From: a virus
DNA: 20,282 nucleotides
IMG/VR virus record: IMGVR_UViG_3300044237_004403
Coordinates: 1-20,282 of that record
Direction: 5' to 3' (one strand)
A program made the position numbers and the translations under genes. The notes beneath the pieces were generated by a model that saw only the letters and a program-made list of their open reading frames with translations, was not told where the DNA came from and ran no database searches. Shown one piece after another: positions 8,186 through 20,249 of the stretch (within the stretch, counting starts at the first letter, position 1; each line of letters opens with the position of its first letter).

Positions 8186-9922
8186 ATGGCATTAACTCGT
8201 ATAACCACTGGATCTATAAGCGCGAATACAATCACTTCTGAAAAGGTGCAGAACGCTTCTATTCAAGCTCGTCATTTTCAGGTAGGTACGATTACTAATA
8301 ACTTGTTAGAGGCAAACGCTAACGTTGCAGCAGCTGAGACTAGAGTTAATGCTAATTTAGACATCGTACAAGACAATGTTGTAATTGTTAATAACTCTGT
8401 TAATACTGTACAAGATAATGTTGTAGCTGCTGAAGCAAATGTAGTACTTAATACTTCTAATATTGATTCTTTTGCAAGTTTTGCAAATACTAACCTTGAT
8501 ACAAAAGCAAATGTATCAGCTACTTATTTTCTAGCTCTTGCAAATGACCTTGCTACTTTTACTAATATAACTGCCAATCTTGACATAGTACAAGATAATG
8601 TAACAGCAGTAGAGACTCGAATCAATGCTAATCTTGATACAACATCTGACAACGTAACTAATATTATAAACGGAACAACACCTTTTACAGGTGCTGTTAC
8701 TATGCAAGATGATCTTACCATTCAAGGAAACTTAACTGTTGCGGGAAATTTTGCTAATTTAGCTGTTACTGATTCATATACAGATGATCGTCTAATTATT
8801 TTAGCAAACTCGTTCACAGGTGCCCCATCTTTAGATGTGGGTATATTGTTAAATCGTGGAAATGATGGTAATGTTTTTATAGGATACGACGAATCTGAAG
8901 GAGAGATAGCTCTTTTACATAATCAAGATCCTGCAAGTAACACGTCTATATCTGCAACCGGGGCTGCAAATCTAAGACTTCAGCGTGGTTATTTTGATGA
9001 TGGTACAGTATCTCTCCCATCTATTACTTTTGATGGTGATGATAATACTGGTTTGTACAAATCTACAACTGATACTTTAGGTATTGCTTCAGGCGGAGTA
9101 GAGGTTATAACTGTTGGTCCAGACGGTGCTACTACTATAACTTCAGATGATGCTGGTTCTGCAGCAGGTCCTGAATTGACTTTATACCGTAACAGTGCTT
9201 CTCCTGCAGCGGCAGACTATATCGGTCAGGTGATGTTTAAAGGTGAGAATAGCACTGGGGGCGCAGAGAACTATGCTAAAATTACAGGTAAGATTACAGA
9301 TCCAACAGCAGGCTCCGAAGATGGTTTAATAGAGACAGCAATTAAAGGTGCGGGCTCCTTTACGATTGTAAGTCGCCAAAATGCTACTCAACTTCAATTA
9401 TTAAATGGAGTAAGTTTAGATGTTGATGATGATGTAACTGCTTCTAATATTTCTGCATCTATCGATCTAATCGCAACAAATGCTGTCATATCACCTTTGA
9501 TGTTTGAGAATGGTGTAGGTATGTCAGCTAATGATAGTGCTACCTATTTTGCTGCTTATGCTAATGATTACATTACTTACACTCGACTTAATGCAAACGT
9601 TAACTCAGTGCAAGCAAACCTAAGCACAGCTCATACTGATTTATCTTCTAATATCAACACAGTTCAAAACAATGTTGATGCAATTACAGGAGGAAGCACT
9701 TTATTAACACCTTTCACTAATGTTAACTCAGCTTTAGGCACTTCAAATGTATTTTTTGTGGGTCGTGATATTGGAGCTGAGGCTAATGTTGTTCTTGTGA
9801 TGTTAGATGGTGTCTCACAACCAAATACAGAATATGAAGTAAATGCTTCAAACAATACAGTTCAATTTACTGATGCCACTATTCCCTCTGGTACAACCGT
9901 TCAAATTTTCTCATTGAGTTAA
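8186..9922 (+). CDS. Second tail fibre protein, coiled-coil repeats with a duplicated module
   Basis: Starts MALTRITTGSISANTITSEK with AAGGA six bases upstream. Residues about 45-165 carry short repeats with NLDIVQDNV and NANLD-type units, spaced like a trimeric coiled coil. A central globular part (about 180-430) contains DGDDNTGLYKSTTDTLGIAS, a motif common in phage fibres of the Gly-Leu-Tyr type. A 58-61-residue module starting SATYF occurs at residues 111-168 and again at 451-511, on either side of the central part. The C-terminal domain (about 512-578, VLVMLDGVSQPNTEYEVN) is a small beta domain seen at the end of many marine phage structural proteins. It is probably a distal fibre or baseplate-linked fibre. 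It ends in a TAATG overlap with the radical SAM gene. Confidence 0.85.
   Translation: MALTRITTGSISANTITSEKVQNASIQARHFQVGTITNNLLEANANVAAAETRVNANLDIVQDNVVIVNNSVNTVQDNVVAAEANVVLNTSNIDSFASFANTNLDTKANVSATYFLALANDLATFTNITANLDIVQDNVTAVETRINANLDTTSDNVTNIINGTTPFTGAVTMQDDLTIQGNLTVAGNFANLAVTDSYTDDRLIILANSFTGAPSLDVGILLNRGNDGNVFIGYDESEGEIALLHNQDPASNTSISATGAANLRLQRGYFDDGTVSLPSITFDGDDNTGLYKSTTDTLGIASGGVEVITVGPDGATTITSDDAGSAAGPELTLYRNSASPAAADYIGQVMFKGENSTGGAENYAKITGKITDPTAGSEDGLIETAIKGAGSFTIVSRQNATQLQLLNGVSLDVDDDVTASNISASIDLIATNAVISPLMFENGVGMSANDSATYFAAYANDYITYTRLNANVNSVQANLSTAHTDLSSNINTVQNNVDAITGGSTLLTPFTNVNSALGTSNVFFVGRDIGAEANVVLVMLDGVSQPNTEYEVNASNNTVQFTDATIPSGTTVQIFSLS
8516..8689 (+). repeat. Fibre module, copy 1
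   Basis: Codes residues 111-168 of the second fibre: SATYFLALANDLATFT, then VQDNV, then ending NGTTPFT. It aligns with copy 2 without gaps for about 50 residues, with shared SATYF, AND, VQxN, NVxxI and GxT positions. At the DNA level the copies have diverged considerably, so the duplication is old. Confidence 0.7.
9536..9718 (+). repeat. Fibre module, copy 2
   Basis: Codes residues 451-511 of the second fibre: SATYFAAYANDYITYT, then VQANL and NNVDAITGG, ending TLLTPFT. It is the counterpart of copy 1, with three extra residues before TPFT, and separates the central domain from the C-terminal domain. Confidence 0.7.
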
Positions 9923-10908
9923 TGGATAAAATCAAACAGCTAACAACAGAATTGACGTTTAGGTGTAATGCTAAGTGTCCTGCTTGTCATCGTTGGAAGC
10001 CTCTTAGTATCAATCTTAATGACGCAAAGTATACAATCACCTTAGAACGCTTTACTCAACTTTTCAATCCAGAGTTACTTCAAAACTTAGACTGGTTAGT
10101 GCTTAACGGAAACTTTGGTGATTCTATAATGAACAAACAGTTTCGTGAAATTATTTCTTATGTCAAGTCTAATGGTACACGTCTTTTGATTCATACGAAT
10201 GGTGGTATACATAATCAAGAGTATTGGACTGATGTAGGTAACATTCTCACAAACCGTGACATTATTAATTTTGATTTAGATGGTTTAGCAGACACTCATC
10301 ATATCTACAGAATTAATACTCAGTTTGATAAAGTGTTAGAGAATGCAAAATCAGTTATCGCAACAAACCGTGCACAAGTGCATTGGAAGTACATAGTGTT
10401 TGAACATAACAAACATCAGGTAGAGGATGCTCGTGAAATAGCAAAACAAGCTGGGTTTACAACTTTTTCTACAGTCAAAACATCACGTGATGTATTTGCT
10501 CCTAAAACAGGTTCTTTCGTTCACTCTAAAAAGACTCAAGAGTATCAACAGGCTGAGAGAAAGATTCATTGTGTGTGGAGTGATTGGGGAAAATGGTACG
10601 TTTCACCAGAGGGTTTAGTTTTTAGGTGTTGTTGGACAGGTGGTCATTACTATGATCAACAAAATGATAAATTTTATTATCCACCCCAGTTTGAACGAAT
10701 GTTTAATGGATTTGAGGTTCCCATTCAAAAAATTATATCGTACAATTATTGGACAAAGTTACAACAATATTTACAAGGATATGACCGATCGTTCAAACTA
10801 TGTAAATCACAGTGCGGAAAGATTGTTTCATCTATAGAGAAGACAGAAGAAAATTTAAAAACAGGTGAGCAGACTGAAGTAGATGCAAAAAACCAATGGG
10901 GAAATTAA
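9922..10908 (+). CDS. Radical SAM protein with SPASM/twitch-like C-terminus
   Basis: The N-terminus has the radical SAM cluster motif C15-x3-C19-x2-C22 (ELTFRCNAKCPACHRW), which binds the [4Fe-4S] cluster used to cleave S-adenosylmethionine. Further family features follow: LNGNFGDSIMN (about 60-70), LLIHTNGG (about 89-96) and DLDGLADTHHIYR (about 117-129). The C-terminal part holds C217, C236-C237 in GLVFRCCW, and C294-x3-C298, the layout of a SPASM or twitch domain with an auxiliary cluster. SPASM proteins often modify peptides or proteins. The substrate here is unknown. The start overlaps the fibre stop by one base (TAATG), so the enzyme should be made with the tail proteins. Its 328 residues are a normal length. 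The family is clear; the role is not. Confidence 0.88.
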   Translation: MDKIKQLTTELTFRCNAKCPACHRWKPLSINLNDAKYTITLERFTQLFNPELLQNLDWLVLNGNFGDSIMNKQFREIISYVKSNGTRLLIHTNGGIHNQEYWTDVGNILTNRDIINFDLDGLADTHHIYRINTQFDKVLENAKSVIATNRAQVHWKYIVFEHNKHQVEDAREIAKQAGFTTFSTVKTSRDVFAPKTGSFVHSKKTQEYQQAERKIHCVWSDWGKWYVSPEGLVFRCCWTGGHYYDQQNDKFYYPPQFERMFNGFEVPIQKIISYNYWTKLQQYLQGYDRSFKLCKSQCGKIVSSIEKTEENLKTGEQTEVDAKNQWGN

Positions 10909-11120
10909 TGAGAAAACCTGAAGTATTACGCAAAATTGGAAAATTTAAGTTTTTAAGATTCCCTAATCAGGGTATACGCCGTAATAAACGGATTAGAGAA
11001 CTTGCCACATCAGGAAAATTAAGTTATCCTACACTTGAAAAATTTATTGAGCGAGAACGTTCGCTTGGATATCCAATTAAATATTCTAAACCTATAGGCT
11101 TTAAAAGGAAACGCAAATGA
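10908..11120 (+). CDS. Small basic protein, unknown function
   Basis: A 70-residue Lys/Arg-rich protein, MRKPEVLRKIGKFKF at the start and GFKRKRK at the end. I chose ATG 10908 because it makes the same TAATG one-base overlap with the preceding stop as the previous junction and has GGGGA (10898-10902) five bases upstream; an in-frame ATG at 10896 would add four residues. The charge suggests nucleic-acid binding or packing in the virion, but no domain is recognised. It overlaps the next gene by ATGA. Confidence 0.72.
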   Translation: MRKPEVLRKIGKFKFLRFPNQGIRRNKRIRELATSGKLSYPTLEKFIERERSLGYPIKYSKPIGFKRKRK

Positions 11121-13795: not shown

Positions 13796-14879
13796 TTACT
13801 GACTTTTCAACCCCCATCATATCAAACTTAAATTTTTTAGGTTTAAAATTTAAGACATCTCTTAATGTAGATTCAAGTTTTGAAAACTCTTGAGTATTTA
13901 ACACTTTAAAAAATTCAAACGGTTCAAAAGTGTAACATCTAACAAATTGCTCTAACTTTTGGCCATCTTGTCTAGGAACTAAAATAGAAGGCACTCTACC
14001 CTTTAATACCTCCATTGTAGTGTTATATCCACCATACGAAATCAGCGCAGAGCAATTTTGTAATTTTTTACCTAGCTCAGGTATATAATTAACAAAAATC
14101 ATATTGTCTCTTACAGTGCCTGATAAGTTACGATGCTTATTTGCAATTGGCATTACAAACTTATAATCAGGAAATTTATTAGCTATTTTGGTAATTTCTT
14201 TAAAAAGTAAAAGTCCTTCGTTTTTATTAAGACCTGTAGTAACGTATATGTGATTATTTTTTCTGCTGTGAGTCTTTATAGACTTATCACAGACATAACC
14301 TGTATATGTAATTTTTTCTTCAATATCTTCTATAATTGCTTTTGAATTAGCTACTCTTGTTCTATCACTATAGAGAGGGAGTATATTTGGATCGCCATGA
14401 ATTAGTATCTTATCAACATAATATTTACAAACTAAATTTTGTGTATAATTAACCCAGTCTTTTAACTGGTCCTCGTGTGGATCATCCCAGGGAAAATCTC
14501 TTGCTGATACTATAATTTTAATATCTCTTTTTTTACATTCTTCCAGAAAAGTAAAATATTCATGAGCATATTGATGCCTACAAAAAGGAAATCCCTCAAT
14601 AACAATTAATTTGAAATCGTATTTATTCAAAATTTCTTTAAATTTTTTAATCCTTAAATGAACCATTTGTTCACTCATTATAAAGCCAGAAAAGCTTTTA
14701 CTATCTGGAACTTCTATACCATCCATAAACGCTATCATTGGAACTTTATATTCTAATGGAGGTCTAAACATAGACTCAATTATAAAAACATCACTGTATT
14801 TCGCAGTTTCCTCTGCTATTAGTTTTGTTCTATTACTATGACCTAGACCATATACATATTGAGTTACAAAACCAATCAT
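13767..14879 (-). CDS. GT-B fold glycosyltransferase (GT28/MurG-like)
   Basis: A 370-residue protein. The start MIGFVTQYVYGLGHSNR has the N-terminal Gly-x-Gly-His loop of GT-B enzymes of the predicted-glycosyltransferase type (COG4671-like). The C-terminal half has IYVTTGLNKNEG and then SYGGYNTTMEVLKGRVPSIL (about 278-297) and LEQ, the nucleotide-sugar binding motif of the GT28 C-terminal domain. It would move a sugar from a nucleotide donor to an unknown acceptor in the cytoplasm. I use ATG 14879, which forms a TAATG overlap with the thyX stop; an in-frame ATG at 14942 would add 21 residues that are only thyX sequence read in another frame. No membrane segment is evident. Confidence 0.8.
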   Translation of the reverse strand: MIGFVTQYVYGLGHSNRTKLIAEETAKYSDVFIIESMFRPPLEYKVPMIAFMDGIEVPDSKSFSGFIMSEQMVHLRIKKFKEILNKYDFKLIVIEGFPFCRHQYAHEYFTFLEECKKRDIKIIVSARDFPWDDPHEDQLKDWVNYTQNLVCKYYVDKILIHGDPNILPLYSDRTRVANSKAIIEDIEEKITYTGYVCDKSIKTHSRKNNHIYVTTGLNKNEGLLLFKEITKIANKFPDYKFVMPIANKHRNLSGTVRDNMIFVNYIPELGKKLQNCSALISYGGYNTTMEVLKGRVPSILVPRQDGQKLEQFVRCYTFEPFEFFKVLNTQEFSKLESTLRDVLNFKPKKFKFDMMGVEKSVNEIIRTYKS

Positions 14880-15544
14880 TATCCGCGAGGATTGAACCAA
14901 CGTTCTGCAAATGGGAAGATTTTGACTAATTCTTCTCCGCAAGCCTTAGCTATTTCAATATGCTCTTTTTGAGTTCCGTGAGAGGCTCTTAATTCAATAT
15001 AATGAATCCAGGATCTAAGAGTCCCATTCATATAAATTCTTGATTTCATCATACCCTCTGGTAATACAGCACGAGCTTGTTCTTTAGCTATACCCATATC
15101 TAAGGCCCAATTGTATGATTGAATAGCAGCTAACTTCACCTTATCTTGTTTTATAAGCCACTCATCGTGTAACTCTTTACTATTAGTTTCGATTGAGTTT
15201 TGTCTATTTTTACTATCTTGTAATCTAGCCTCTCTGTTAGTCCAACCTAAAGTGTCAGTTGGGTCAGCGTATCTCTGAGAAAATTCTTGAAATGAAAATG
15301 ATCTATGACGAAGAATCTGACGAGCAATATCGCGGGTAGTTTCTATTTCCATACAGACAGAAACCATCTCAAAAGGCGACCAGTGATTTTCTCTCATCAA
15401 ATATTTTAATAGTTTTTCAGACGTTTCAGTGCTCATTTGATTATCAGGATTAGAAACCCGAGCACAATAGGCAACTAAATCTTCAGCATTATTAATTCCA
15501 ATCATATCTACAGGTTGTGAATAAGATATTAACCTAACTTTCAT
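14879..15544 (-). CDS. thyX: Flavin-dependent thymidylate synthase ThyX
   Basis: Makes dTMP from dUMP with methylenetetrahydrofolate and FAD/NADPH. The signature RHRxxSx4SxRY is intact as RHRSFSFQEFSQRY (residues 79-92). Other ThyX features are CARVSNPD (27-34), HWSPFE (54-59) and the C-terminal ARAVLPEGM and MNGTLRSWIHY. At 221 residues it is a normal length. I chose ATG 15544, which has GGAG six bases before it and begins MKVRLISY as other ThyX proteins do; an ATG four codons earlier (15556) is possible but places that GGAG inside the gene. It overlaps the upstream dUTPase-fold gene by 11 bases and the downstream gene by one. Phages carry ThyX to raise thymidylate supply during replication. 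Confidence 0.96.
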   Translation of the reverse strand: MKVRLISYSQPVDMIGINNAEDLVAYCARVSNPDNQMSTETSEKLLKYLMRENHWSPFEMVSVCMEIETTRDIARQILRHRSFSFQEFSQRYADPTDTLGWTNREARLQDSKNRQNSIETNSKELHDEWLIKQDKVKLAAIQSYNWALDMGIAKEQARAVLPEGMMKSRIYMNGTLRSWIHYIELRASHGTQKEHIEIAKACGEELVKIFPFAERWFNPRG

Positions 15545-16103
15545 TTTTATCTCCATAAATATTAATTATTTTTTCCCTACTATATTGCTCAGTAGTCTTT
15601 GTTTTACTTCTACCTCTAATTTGATCCTTAATTCTTTTAATAAAAGTTTTTCCAGAATCCATTTTCCAATCGGATTTTTCTATCTGATCAACGTATTTTA
15701 TTACAATTCTTGGAAGTAATTTTATAGTCATATGTGCTATTTTTTGACCGGGCTTTATAATCACAGCTTCAACATTTTTATTTTCAAGATGTACCCATAT
15801 TTCATCTCTAAACGTGTAAGGAAAGTAAGTTACTCCTTCAGGCATACATACGCCGTAATTGTAAATTAAACCACTAAGAGAGTTGATCTCAATAATAAAA
15901 TGAGGGTTTATAATCTGTGGATATATACCTGTTGGAAAAGGAATGATTTCATTAGGTTGTAGAGTAATTGATTCATCTATACAAGCTCTGAGGTGATAAA
16001 AAGGTTCTAAATGGTTATAGACTTCAAATGACCAGCTTATACCTAATATCTTCTCAAGTTCTCTTGCTTTAGAGCTTTTTTCTATTTTAACTTCACAGAT
16101 CAT
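15534..16103 (-). CDS. dUTPase-fold protein with altered catalytic motifs
   Basis: The chain follows the trimeric dUTPase plan but departs from it at catalytic positions. YHLRACIDESITLQPNE (36-52) and IPFPTGIY match motif I and the strand after it, with His where AGYDL has Asp. NSLSGL (74-79) stands for RSGL and lacks the Arg. GVTYFPYTFRDEIWV (90-104) stands for GTIDxxYRGEI and lacks the catalytic Asp. PGQKIAHMTI (118-127) is motif IV with His for Gln. WKMDSGKTF sits where the GGFGSTG motif should be. It may have lost dUTP hydrolysis and be a regulatory or binding protein; a distant dCTP deaminase relative is less likely. I use ATG 16103 (11-base overlap with the exonuclease); ATG 16157 would give 207 residues with a 65-base overlap. 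Confidence 0.75.
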   Translation of the reverse strand: MICEVKIEKSSKARELEKILGISWSFEVYNHLEPFYHLRACIDESITLQPNEIIPFPTGIYPQIINPHFIIEINSLSGLIYNYGVCMPEGVTYFPYTFRDEIWVHLENKNVEAVIIKPGQKIAHMTIKLLPRIVIKYVDQIEKSDWKMDSGKTFIKRIKDQIRGRSKTKTTEQYSREKIINIYGDKNES

Positions 16104-16935
16104 TAAGTCTTGCAAGTGGTTCATCTCCGTATTTACCTGATGAAATCGCATCAACACAATATTTTTTAAGGTTAATTAGTTTTTCATTTCTGATTAGTTG
16201 TTCACGACCAGCGTTAAGGTTATTTATATATTTTGATCGTCCTTTAATAGGTAAAGCTTCTAGTAGATTATCAAGTGTTTTATATTCACGTGCCAGCCCT
16301 TGAGCACGTTTAGGACCAATACCTTCAATTCCTAAAATATTATCTGATTTATCACCTTCAATAATTCTAGATAACATATATTCAGACGGTGTAACTTCAA
16401 AATCTTCTTTTAAAGTTTGTAGAGTGACTTCTTTGCGCCCAAAAATATTGAAAATTGATATATTTTCATCAATTAATTGATATAAGTCACGGTCTGAAGA
16501 TACGATCCAAGTATGGTCATATTTATCAGATATATTCTGTGTAATCCAAGCCAAGATATCATCAGCTTCAACACCTCTAAATTTTAATACTTCATCATCC
16601 AGCTGATTAGGTAACTCGTTGAGAACTGCGAAAAATTCTTCGTATTTTTTTGCCTCATCATCATCTTGAGGTTTTTTACGAGTGCCTTTATATTCATCAT
16701 GCATATCCATTCTATAGTAAGATTTTCCGAAATCAAAACAAACAATTGTTCTTGTGGCCTCATATGATTTTGAAAGTGATTGAATTGTACGAATAAAATC
16801 AGAATCAAACGAAGAGTAGTTGGGTCTTTGAAGCCAACGATAGGATAAGTTGTTTGCATCGACTATTAAAAGATTATTATAGGTCGAGTAGTCTGGCTCT
16901 TGCAAGTCTGCAAGATCATTCCAAGATTTGGTCAT
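16093..16935 (-). CDS. 5'-3' exonuclease / flap endonuclease family (T4 RNase H-like)
   Basis: A 280-residue nuclease for removing RNA primers and 5' flaps during phage replication. The metal-binding motifs of the FEN/Pol I 5' nuclease family are in order: LLIVDANNLSYRW (22-34), CFDFGKSYYRM (66-76) with the following EYKGTRK, GVEADDILAW (121-130), IVSSDRDLYQLI (144-155) and GDKSDNILGIEGIGPKRA (194-211), the last containing the helix-hairpin-helix that grips DNA. All expected acidic residues are present, so it should be active. The start is clear: AGGAGATAACTATG. There is a 36-base gap before it, the only non-overlapping stretch of any size in the minus-strand block. No polymerase domain is attached. 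Confidence 0.93.
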   Translation of the reverse strand: MTKSWNDLADLQEPDYSTYNNLLIVDANNLSYRWLQRPNYSSFDSDFIRTIQSLSKSYEATRTIVCFDFGKSYYRMDMHDEYKGTRKKPQDDDEAKKYEEFFAVLNELPNQLDDEVLKFRGVEADDILAWITQNISDKYDHTWIVSSDRDLYQLIDENISIFNIFGRKEVTLQTLKEDFEVTPSEYMLSRIIEGDKSDNILGIEGIGPKRAQGLAREYKTLDNLLEALPIKGRSKYINNLNAGREQLIRNEKLINLKKYCVDAISSGKYGDEPLARLNDL

Positions 16936-16971: not shown

Positions 16972-17433
16972 TTATGAGGAAGTAGCAAGATCAGTTTGTT
17001 CTTTTATGGCATCAATCCAGTCATCAAGTTTTGTTAACTTGAAGTGACATCCATATGATTTAACTTCTATAAAAAAGGGAACTTTTAAATCATCATTAAA
17101 AGCTACAAAATCCTTTGAGCGATTCCATCTAAATATTAACAACGGCTTTTTTTTCATTACTTCTGCTTCTCTAACAGTTTGTCTCCAAAAGCTAAGAATG
17201 TCCGTGGTTTTTGAGGTAAGTAGATTATTCCATTGTAAATCTTTATAATGTTTACACTCTATTGCGTAAGGCCACCACGCTGTGTCGTAGGGAGTCCAAA
17301 TATCACCTTTTAAATAATCAATTGATCCTGATAGAGGAACTCTCCTAAATTCTACACCAAATTCTGCTGTAAGTCTTGTTGCTATTTTTTGTTCGTATGC
17401 AGAGCCTTTTGCTTTGCTTTTATTGTGTGCCAT
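16972..17433 (-). CDS. PD-(D/E)XK nuclease, probable Holliday junction resolvase-like
   Basis: A 153-residue protein with the PD-(D/E)XK pattern: E14 in the first helix (GSAYEQKIATRL), D44 in LKGDIW, and E59-x-K61 in YAIECKHYK. The basic N-terminus (MAHNKSKAKG) and a late stretch of Trp and Gln (DILSFWRQTVREA) are like phage resolvases and RecB-type nucleases. It may resolve branched DNA before packaging or act in repair; the exact substrate cannot be told. AGGT lies seven bases before the ATG. It overlaps the upstream gene by 14 bases and is followed by the exonuclease, which fits a replication and recombination pair. Confidence 0.8.
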   Translation of the reverse strand: MAHNKSKAKGSAYEQKIATRLTAEFGVEFRRVPLSGSIDYLKGDIWTPYDTAWWPYAIECKHYKDLQWNNLLTSKTTDILSFWRQTVREAEVMKKKPLLIFRWNRSKDFVAFNDDLKVPFFIEVKSYGCHFKLTKLDDWIDAIKEQTDLATSS

Positions 17434-18556
17434 ATAGTAACCTGTAAATATTATTTTGAGTGTTATTATGGTTATTCTTTAAAATATTCAAATTATGCTC
17501 AAATATTGGCTCAAGTTCATTTATTTGTTTTTTTAAATGATCAAAAGGTATGTTAGCTAATCGATTAATTTCTTTAAAAATCATTTTCAACCTTTCAGGA
17601 GGGGATTCTTCTTGATCATAATCTTCATTAATTAGTGGGGAGAAAGATTTAAAACCAAGACTACGAAAAAAATTTAAAGAGTATGGATGAGACGCTAAAA
17701 TAAAAGGCATTTTAGCTTCAACACATCGATAAACTTTTTCTGTAATAATATTTAGATTCACATTAGATGCCATGTCACCTTCAAAGGCAATATGTATTAA
17801 TGATTTTTTTAGTGTTTCTTCAATATTTAATAGTTCAAATGTTTTGTCAAAAGAGGAAAAAGATATATCAGAGTTACCAAAAATATGTTGTGTACTGTGT
17901 ATTTTATTAATTTTACTGAATCGTCCACCTTGTTCAGCAGCAGAAATATATATTTGATCAATTATACCAGTTTTTTCTAAAAAATGTAGAAATTGCATTC
18001 TTGAGGTGCATTCTTCATAATGGTGTAAAAATGCTGAAAATACTTTTTGTGGTCTGTCTTCAAGGAACTCTACATTATATTTATCAATATCGTTAATAAA
18101 TCCTAAATTTCTCTCTAAAATACAAGAATCATACATTATTATATTAGGAACAAGGCTTGGATGTTTTACACAATAAATAACTTCAGGAGTCTGTTGATGT
18201 GCTATATTTTCAAATATTTTAAAATCATCAACGGAATCAAATGGTTCATAAACGAAGACAATTATTTTACCATTATGCAAATTACTCTCTATTTTTTTTG
18301 ATAACATAGTTTGTATTTGCTTGAGAGAATTAAAAAAAAATAAATTATTTAAAAAAACTGGATATAACCACTTTAATTCTTCATCACAAAAATAAGAAGA
18401 TTTAAATTTTACATTAAAATTAGAAAAAGTTTTTTTCAGTAAACTTTCATAAGGATTAAAGAATCCTCTAGAAGCTTTTGGCTCCGGTATTAAGTTAGGC
18501 ACTGGTCCTTTATTCGGATCAATATGATCAAATAGAAATACTAAATCATTACTCAT
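17420..18556 (-). CDS. GT10-like glycosyltransferase
   Basis: A 378-residue protein. The N-terminal two thirds have no sharp motif. The C-terminal third (about 250-335) has the nucleotide-sugar binding region of fucosyltransferase-family 10-like enzymes: HIAFEGDMASNVNL, ITEKVYRCVEAKMPFILAS, then NFFRSLGFKSFSPLINEDYD and PPERL. In this family the Thr-Glu-Lys and Pro-Phe-Ile positions shape the donor site. The donor and acceptor here are unknown. The extreme C-terminus is Asn-rich. The ribosome site is weak, and the start lies 8 bases after the SGNH-like gene, so coupling is likely. Strong homology to true fucosyltransferases should not be assumed. Confidence 0.72.
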   Translation of the reverse strand: MSNDLVFLFDHIDPNKGPVPNLIPEPKASRGFFNPYESLLKKTFSNFNVKFKSSYFCDEELKWLYPVFLNNLFFFNSLKQIQTMLSKKIESNLHNGKIIVFVYEPFDSVDDFKIFENIAHQQTPEVIYCVKHPSLVPNIIMYDSCILERNLGFINDIDKYNVEFLEDRPQKVFSAFLHHYEECTSRMQFLHFLEKTGIIDQIYISAAEQGGRFSKINKIHSTQHIFGNSDISFSSFDKTFELLNIEETLKKSLIHIAFEGDMASNVNLNIITEKVYRCVEAKMPFILASHPYSLNFFRSLGFKSFSPLINEDYDQEESPPERLKMIFKEINRLANIPFDHLKKQINELEPIFEHNLNILKNNHNNTQNNIYRLLYGTQ

Positions 18557-18564
18557 AATTTTTA

Positions 18565-19245
18565 TTATGCAATTTCTTTTATTACTCTACTGGCAAAAAT
18601 TTTATTTTCTTTTTCAGAAAGATGATTTGTTGATTTTACATGCTCTTTTTCGTAGTCATGTGGACCAGAATTTATCATTACTGATTCTAAACCAAAATAA
18701 TGTTCACCACAATATTCTTTAATATTTTTGTGAAATCTTGGGTAGATATTTCTATATAAAATATACTTACATGGTAATAAACTTAAAAGATGTAGTAAAG
18801 CCCATGCTTGATATTGTGCGTTTAATCTATATGAGCTAGTTGCCAAATATTTTTTCATTTGTTCAATATGATAGTTTCTTAAATGTGAAGAAAGATTGCC
18901 AGAAGTTATAGTTGCGATTTTTTTAAAATAGCTGTGTTTTATTTCATCTATATTCTGTCTAAAATCAGATAATGACGCAGGATAGTTTAAATCATCATCA
19001 TCTATTTCAAAACGTTCAGCAGCTGTCAAAGATACAATAACAATATCATGCGGCTCTAGAAAGGAAATAGCATGTTGCAACTGAAAACATATAGCATAAT
19101 TGCTACATCCTACAATCGCTAAGTTAATAAGATCTAAGTCGTAAAAATCTGCTACAATCCGAGGCCAATGAGAACTCTTAGTTCCATAACTAAAACTCTC
19201 TCCACACACAACTAACTTATTCTTTTTAAGTCCAGAGTTACGCAA
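18565..19245 (-). CDS. SGNH/GDSL hydrolase-like protein
   Basis: A 226-residue protein. LVVCGESFSYGTK (11-23) contains the GDSL-type block I with S17 as the expected nucleophile, NLAIVGCSNYA (41-51) is block II with the oxyanion Gly, and STNHLSEKENKIFASRVI near the end is block V with the catalytic His. The Asp that normally precedes that His is not seen (Thr/Asn instead), and block III (VSLTAAERFEI) lacks the Gly-x-Asn-Asp form, so activity is uncertain. Relatives remove acyl or acetyl groups from sugars or lipids, which would fit the neighbouring glycosyltransferase. The start is TTG at 19245 with GGAGG six bases upstream; the gene overlaps the amidinotransferase by 34 bases. Confidence 0.68.
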   Translation of the reverse strand: MRNSGLKKNKLVVCGESFSYGTKSSHWPRIVADFYDLDLINLAIVGCSNYAICFQLQHAISFLEPHDIVIVSLTAAERFEIDDDDLNYPASLSDFRQNIDEIKHSYFKKIATITSGNLSSHLRNYHIEQMKKYLATSSYRLNAQYQAWALLHLLSLLPCKYILYRNIYPRFHKNIKEYCGEHYFGLESVMINSGPHDYEKEHVKSTNHLSEKENKIFASRVIKEIA

Positions 19246-20249
19246 TGAAATCCTCCACTTATAATTCTATCGTGTCTAAGCTCTAATGGTATAGTCTTAA
19301 TTCCGTGAGCGTTTAGTTTTTTGTGGATTTGTTTTTGTTTTTTGTCTACAATAACTAATTCAGAATTGACACTTAGTAAATTCATTCCTATCCATTCACT
19401 CGCTCCCCACGGTAAATTAAAAGGAGACTTTGTAGGTCCAATACATTCATCAATCCAAATTTTATCCCATGATTTAAATAGCTCAGGCTCATTTTCTTGA
19501 TTTACACGAGAAGCATTATACAATACTAATCCTTCTTTTAATGGTACGATAGTGCTATCTAAATGCGCATAAGAATATAAACTTTTAGTAACATGCACTT
19601 TATAATTACTACCTAAAGTTCTTTGTAACCACTCTGCGCCTAGCTCATTTCCGGTGTTTGAAACCTGATAAAGAATATCCTCATTTACTCTAACACAATT
19701 AGCCGCTTCAAAAAGAATCTCCTGATTGTTAAGTGCAGCAACCCCTTTTGTATCTTCTTTGTAATTTTCATCATACAGCATTGGGATGGGTGCTTTTATC
19801 CAATTGTAGCCTTCTCTAAAAAGTTGATAAAACACATCTCTATACGCCCATGTTTCATATTGACGATTCCAAATTGGAGATGGAGTTTCGATAATATTAT
19901 TACCTACAATTAAAGTTAAATCCCTAGGGCAATGGTAGTGCCAGTTCTTTCCTCTCCAATGAGGAGAAACTGTCTCTACCTCTGCGTATTTAGTGTCAGG
20001 TCTATGAACTATTACTCCTAACTCTTCTAATGTTTGTGTTAGTAAATTTAGATCTTCGTTTTGTTCATCTATTATTTGTTTTGGGTAATAACCTGTAAAT
20101 TTTTTTACATACTCTTCTTCATATTCTGGAAATTGACATTTCATTGTACTTATATTAGGAATAGGTATTGATGCATAGTCAGCTGTTCCTACAATAATTT
20201 CTTGCAATTTATCCCAGTCATTATTACAGCTCATATTGTATTCTTCCAT
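19212..20249 (-). CDS. Glycine amidinotransferase-like protein
   Basis: A 345-residue member of the guanidino-group-modifying superfamily, whose amidinotransferases move the amidino group of arginine to an amine through a covalent Cys intermediate. The catalytic Cys is C336 in GGFHCVTLD, the His is H229 in AHLDST, and the position of the catalytic Asp is E181 in FEAANCVR, a conservative change. Spacing between these residues is close to the human glycine enzyme (48 and 107 here; 49 and 104 there). Also typical are VSNTGNELGAEWLQRTLG and WIGMNLLSV. The acceptor amine cannot be told. The start is either ATG 20249 or ATG 20234; the second has GGAAG eight bases upstream and reads MSCNNDWDKLQEIIVG, so may be the real one. 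Confidence 0.86.
   Translation of the reverse strand: MEEYNMSCNNDWDKLQEIIVGTADYASIPIPNISTMKCQFPEYEEEYVKKFTGYYPKQIIDEQNEDLNLLTQTLEELGVIVHRPDTKYAEVETVSPHWRGKNWHYHCPRDLTLIVGNNIIETPSPIWNRQYETWAYRDVFYQLFREGYNWIKAPIPMLYDENYKEDTKGVAALNNQEILFEAANCVRVNEDILYQVSNTGNELGAEWLQRTLGSNYKVHVTKSLYSYAHLDSTIVPLKEGLVLYNASRVNQENEPELFKSWDKIWIDECIGPTKSPFNLPWGASEWIGMNLLSVNSELVIVDKKQKQIHKKLNAHGIKTIPLELRHDRIISGGFHCVTLDLKRIS
19252..19256 (-). promoter_or_regulatory. Shine-Dalgarno deciding the TTG start of the SGNH-like gene
   Basis: GGAGG on the minus strand lies six bases before TTG at 19245, inside the last codons of the amidinotransferase gene. There is no other methionine near the N-terminus, so this site fixes the start. 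Confidence 0.7.

Follow-up and report, generated by a model that had tools for sequence, protein, structure and literature searches.

The window analysed here is the whole stretch of 20 282 nucleotides taken from one strand of the virus record IMGVR_UViG_3300044237_004403 (IMG/VR, positions 1–20 282). The locus under study lies on the minus strand and comprises the following genes.

14879..15544, minus strand: ThyX, flavin-dependent thymidylate synthase; overlaps the degenerate gene, its open reading frame reaching an ATG at 15556
15534..16103, minus strand: degenerate dUTPase-fold protein of 189 amino acids, ATG at 16103
16093..16935, minus strand: T5 D15-like 5'-3' exonuclease/flap endonuclease; overlaps the degenerate gene
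16972..17433, minus strand: PDDEXK/Holliday-junction-resolvase-like (HJR) protein, the counterpart of T5 D14

These genes form part of an operon of DNA-metabolism genes (HJR-like nuclease, exonuclease, degenerate dUTPase, ThyX, a glycosyltransferase-like and a methyltransferase-like gene). Counted from the ATG at 16103, the degenerate gene overlaps the stop of the exonuclease gene by 11 bp; the true start may lie three codons further upstream, at a TTG (16112) in a start position common to several relatives. The overlap with ThyX is 11 bp from the ThyX ATG at 15544 and 23 bp from the first ATG of that reading frame at 15556. A GGAG motif is located ahead of 15544, within the 3' end of the degenerate gene, and the ATG that follows it is probably the start of ThyX. 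A full reading frame kept in tight overlap with both neighbours had been described in the initial annotation, and the description holds with these lengths.

Sequence similarity and predicted fold

No Pfam family other than dUTPase was matched by the degenerate protein, and the match to that family (PF00692) was obtained with E = 0.03, under the cut-off. PHROG 135 (dUTPase) was matched with E = 1.7e-5 and E. coli Dut with E = 6e-8 over 103 residues, ungapped. A structural model was predicted with AF2 from 35 natural relatives (pLDDT 86) and was searched with Foldseek; dUTPases made up 50 of the 50 PDB chains listed, and the target TM-scores among these 50 matches were mostly 0.8–0.9. Homology to dUTPases is real, being weak by sequence and clear by the predicted fold, and the dUTPase-fold assignment made earlier from the letters alone is supported by both the model and its structural neighbours. 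With the trimeric dUTPases (Dut; PF00692/PHROG 135) the protein shares the fold, the strand order, the sequence context of motifs I–IV and the neighbourhood after the exonuclease, whereas it differs from them in the replaced residues of motifs I–IV, the missing motif V and the Pfam score below the cut-off.

Active-site residues

The alignment with E. coli Dut has no gaps, which leaves the pairing of residues free of guesswork. The following replacements were read from the alignment.

15993..15995, minus strand: His37 for the motif I Asp (E. coli D32)
15876..15878, minus strand: Leu76 for the motif II Arg (E. coli R71); Arg is absent from 55 of 55 degenerate sequences
15837..15839, minus strand: Glu89 for the Asn that binds uracil (E. 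coli N84); 52 of 55 relatives have an acidic residue here
15819..15821, minus strand: Pro95 for the motif III catalytic Asp (E. coli D90); FPYTFR is conserved in the window's clade
15732..15734, minus strand: His124 for the motif IV Gln (E. coli Q119)

The Ser and Gly of motif II are kept (S72 to S77 and G73 to G78), giving the triplet Leu-Ser-Gly, and E. coli Y93 and R116 correspond to F98 and K121. Motif V (GGFGSTG type) is missing from the protein and from all 55 relatives; it and the motif II Arg are the features lost in every one of them. The motif IV Gln is still there in seven close relatives, and the motif I Asp survives in three and the Asn equivalent to N84 in two of the 55 degenerate sequences. 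At the motif III position Pro is confined to the window's own clade, an acid (Asp or Glu) being usual in the wider family; judged by the alignment, the D90 position is changed most in the window clade. The replacement or loss of the motif I Asp, the motif II Arg, the motif III Asp, the motif IV Gln and motif V, as first proposed, is confirmed by this comparison.

Bacterial dCTP deaminases are marked by an Arg-Ser-Ser motif and a deaminase Glu. Motif II of the degenerate protein is without Arg and departs from that signature.

A pocket rebuilt for another nucleotide or a modified base might be read into the acidic residues at position 89 (Asp or Glu where the uracil-reading Asn stood) and position 95 (an acid, Asp or Glu, in the greater part of the wider family), and into the fold and pocket strands, which are intact in the AF2 model. 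That the protein is still such an enzyme is nevertheless very unlikely: every member has lost all of motif V and the motif II Arg that binds phosphate, the phosphate loop RSG has become FTD or LSG with negative charge added in many, the motif III acid is Pro in the window clade, and the positions are too variable to resemble a new fixed active site.

Homologues and phylogeny

A search of viral contigs with the single degenerate protein returned nothing; a search with the neighbouring exonuclease gave about 80 related contigs, and in a local search most of these proved to have a homologue immediately after the exonuclease. The set contained 55 distinct full-length degenerate relatives, positioned after the T5-type exonuclease and usually before ThyX, and eight same-slot proteins with all catalytic residues (L154, L155, L156, L157, L159, L160, L014 and L254). 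No host or isolate homologue of the degenerate protein was found in a scan of genome contigs, and nine isolate or gut-phage matches that were examined were all motif-intact dUTPases.

In a maximum-likelihood tree all 55 degenerate proteins were recovered as one clade (support 100/96), which joined the same-slot intact dUTPases, with the intact dUTPases of the other slot placed apart; the tree has some long branches and its joining point is less certain than the single clade. Because the degenerate proteins form one clade beside the same-slot intact dUTPases, catalysis appears to have been lost once. The loss is an old one and is spread through a large group of uncultured phages, which from their context are apparently marine.

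Two further elements were located in the degenerate protein.

16026..16091, minus strand: N-terminal element, residues 5–26, IEKSSxAxxLExxxxxxW; not in E. coli Dut
15609..15698, minus strand: C-terminal element, residues 136–165, after the beta barrel and ahead of the site of the lost motif V

Both are also present in the intact same-slot dUTPases, and E. coli and T5 Dut are without them. The N-terminal element is a helix element and the most conserved stretch of the degenerate family; its residues E8, A13, L16, E17 and W24 are nearly invariant in intact and degenerate proteins together, unlike most of the catalytic positions, which have drifted in the degenerate ones.

Selection

The dN/dS check of the family that had been proposed in the initial annotation gave 0.07–0.16 for the closest pairs of the degenerate gene, compared with about 0.02–0.06 for the exonuclease and ThyX in their own closest pairs. 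By these sequence comparisons the degenerate gene is under purifying selection, yet evolves faster than the exonuclease and ThyX genes. No broken copy was found at any locus with a wide gap between exonuclease and ThyX.

The faster evolution and the lack of the gene in one group of relatives (type B, below) would suit a leftover that has been rotting since a takeover by MazG and survives through the overlaps with its neighbours. Decay of this kind is considered highly improbable, as the dN/dS values are well below 1, the 55 distinct full-length sequences make up a deep clade that is without a broken copy even at wide exonuclease–ThyX gaps, near-invariant residues lie outside the active site, and the overlaps span the gene ends only.

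Candidate genes for dUTP handling

The gene order in the related phages is RNR (ribonucleotide reductase)–(MazG, intact Dut or PRA-PH)–glutaredoxin–PhoH–HJR–exonuclease–(degenerate Dut)–ThyX. With PF03819 or a profile built from these MazG proteins, MazG was found in 28 related records; a PRA-PH/MazG-superfamily protein (PF01503) was found in three. The degenerate dUTPase was present in all 31 of these MazG-type records and an intact dUTPase was found in none, while among 12 records with an intact dUTPase none had a MazG-type gene above the cut-off. MazG-type genes and intact dUTPases are thus mutually exclusive in the records examined, most of which are fragments, many of the 31 MazG-type records also being closely related to one another.

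In records that show the whole region, MazG, PRA-PH and intact dUTPase share one slot, with RNR before it and glutaredoxin/PhoH after it. The order at L141 and L144 is RNR–MazG–glutaredoxin, that at L136 and L146 is RNR–dUTPase–glutaredoxin, and all of them carry the degenerate copy right after the exonuclease. Degenerate and intact dUTPases were found together in two phages (G035 and G040). In the phages referred to as type D the intact dUTPase is flanked by the exonuclease and ThyX, with nothing in the RNR slot; those of type B have the intact dUTPase in the RNR slot and no gene between the exonuclease and ThyX. Swapping of MazG, intact dUTPase and PRA-PH in the slot was seen at L210 (RNR–MazG–glutaredoxin), L252, L251 and L262. 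At L269, a divergent relative, a GIY-YIG-like frame (52–846), possibly a homing endonuclease, is located next to glutaredoxin.

On the exonuclease tree the type B loci (L131, L132, L133, L134 and L150) fall within the MazG-bearing group and are without MazG and the degenerate dUTPase, a placement which suggests that both genes were replaced there. Since the degenerate copy is absent from the type B phages, it must be dispensable in some backgrounds. The exchange of MazG and dUTPase was evaluated on the same tree in four independent supported contrasts, of which three agree, none opposes and one shows no change (sign test, p = 0.25); with so few independent contrasts the statistics are suggestive and not proof.

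The catalytic residues E53, E56, E82 and D85 of MazG were invariant in 19 of 19 sequences. Among known folds the nearest to MazG were dCTPases and DR2231, which cleaves dUTP; the E-values of these matches are weak (0.05 or worse). Cleavage of dUTP has been described for a MazG-like enzyme of Deinococcus radiodurans (PMC5122711), and MazG of the cyanophage S-PM2 hydrolyses dUTP among other dNTPs, with dGTP and dCTP preferred (PMC6850273). Compared with these MazG-type NTP pyrophosphatases (DR2231 and S-PM2 MazG), the gene in the slot encodes a small MazG with intact catalytic residues for which dUTP is a candidate substrate, and we infer that dUTP is cleaved by MazG in these phages.

The window stops before the RNR slot, and MazG was seen in its nearest relatives. 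In the search for a second, normal dUTPase that had been advised at the outset, none was found in the 20-kb window, which is a fragment, or in the closest relatives; one was found in each of the two phages named above. The overlapping 72-kb records G042 and G043, which together cover about 90 kb, likewise contained no intact dUTPase. The earlier suggestion that dUTP is handled differently in this phage is supported by the MazG-type gene that occupies the intact-dUTPase slot of most relatives, and by the second intact dUTPase in the two phages.

L069 (record G054) is an exception, with a degenerate copy and neither MazG nor an intact dUTPase in 32.5 kb; it is the only fully visible related record of this kind. 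It is also the only one with a dCMP deaminase (one of 26 records), and has a dNMP-kinase-like gene between two RNR genes. A dCMP deaminase as the general source of dUMP was rejected on that count. Replacement by a dimeric (all-alpha) dUTPase was rejected with PF08761 found in 0 of 43 records, a weakly informative result as the model matched just one of 14 control genomes. Uracil-containing DNA seems disfavoured by the intact ThyX.

Comparison with known systems

In the T5-like phage OSYSP the order is SbcC–D14 (HJR)–D15 (exonuclease)–dUTPase, and T5 Dut, encoded after the D14/D15 pair, has a place equivalent to that of the degenerate gene. T5 Dut is an active enzyme with a GTNPAA loop after motif I, whereas the degenerate family is without this loop and has N- and C-terminal elements other than those of T5 Dut. 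A T5 dut amber mutant is rescued by the inactive T5 Dut variants S68A and D85N but not by E. coli dut, which shows that T5 Dut has a function apart from its catalysis (PMC10815766).

Activity has been lost and another role retained in dUTPase-related proteins of herpesviruses (PMC11599850) and in a dUTPase-related gene of BIV (PMC4261571). These are animal viruses, whose proteins have several domains in the case of the herpesviruses and are truncated in that of BIV, whereas those of the phages have a single domain and nearly the full length, and are encoded in a nucleotide-metabolism operon.

The dUTPases of staphylococcal phages (Stl antirepressors) have a regulatory, protein-binding role (PMC4914113, PMC5608427). 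These signalling dUTPases are active and use motifs V and VI, in contrast to the degenerate protein, which is without motif V; its extra segments are N-terminal and before the motif V position. No degenerate phage dUTPase and no MazG replacing a phage dUTPase was described in the literature searched, which covered few subscription papers.

Proposed explanation

The preferred reading, to which a probability of about two in three is given, is that the protein is a dUTPase-fold pseudoenzyme whose chemistry was taken over by a MazG-type enzyme or by a second dUTPase, and which was itself kept for a non-catalytic job. The ancestral phage would have encoded an active dUTPase right after the exonuclease, as T5 does today, and this dUTPase would have lost catalysis once. 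Removal of dUTP and supply of dUMP for ThyX would have passed to the enzyme in the post-RNR slot, usually a MazG-type NTP pyrophosphatase and sometimes a second, intact dUTPase. The old protein would have stayed in the DNA-metabolism operon because of an extra non-catalytic job, most likely the binding of a phage or host protein via the trimer surface and the N- and C-terminal elements. The degenerate protein is presumably a trimer, probably acts by binding rather than by catalysis and, by analogy, may have a role related to the non-enzymatic role of T5 Dut.

A clade of 55 members and single origin that is intact, selected and catalytically dead is as a non-enzymatic role predicts. The suggestion of such a role in the initial annotation is upheld in this general sense, signalling in particular aside, by that clade and by the degenerate copies that stand beside an intact dUTPase; the two possibilities offered there, a non-enzymatic role and dUTP handled in another way, are supported as fitting together. 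Against the pseudoenzyme reading it may be held that the T5 loop tied to the extra function is absent here, that the cyanophage MazG prefers dGTP and dCTP to dUTP (PMC6850273) and that MazG was seen in the nearest relatives and not in the window phage itself.

The non-catalytic reading has two special cases. The protein could belong, as a non-catalytic subunit, to a complex for dNTP synthesis or replication that includes ThyX, the exonuclease, RNR or MazG, and there channel dUMP or organize the complex. Its fixed place between the exonuclease and ThyX, which it overlaps slightly in the window as in relatives, is consistent with this, as is the reported binding of a mycobacterial dUTPase to the AdnAB helicase-nuclease, by which recombination is modulated (PMC13309787). 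Adjacency of genes alone is no proof of contact, however, and L148, L149 and L153 have the protein without an adjacent ThyX, so that such a subunit is possible but somewhat doubtful. A dedicated signalling or counter-defence protein that binds a regulator encoded by the host or by an island is unlikely. Trimeric phage dUTPases do bind regulators (PMC4914113, PMC5608427) and the degenerate family has surface elements of its own, but the staphylococcal case needs motifs IV, V and VI (PMC5593958, PMC4914113), of which motif V is absent here, and no repressor or island is in view.

More tentatively, a dual-function dUTPase of the T5 type may have been split in two genes, one for the chemistry (a MazG-type enzyme or second dUTPase) and one for a purely non-catalytic dUTPase-fold protein. 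If true, this would make the family an experiment of nature in which the non-enzymatic role of phage dUTPases is separated from the enzymatic one. Why viruses and cells require the dUTPase protein when its activity is dispensable is a question raised for T5 and mycobacteria. A clade that keeps the fold without the chemistry, with its fixed residues visible, offers a direct route to the non-catalytic surface, and the gene-slot exchange suggests that small MazG proteins of phages may stand in for dUTPases.

Other features of the window

A variable block (17420–20249) is located upstream of the HJR-like gene and contains an amidinotransferase-like gene (19212–20249) and genes for proteins of 226 and 378 amino acids; some relatives, but not others, have blocks related to it between PhoH and HJR. 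In the tail-gene region of the window a radical-SAM-like protein (9922–10908) is followed directly by a short basic peptide (10896–11120), and this pair is kept in related phages (L210 and L148).
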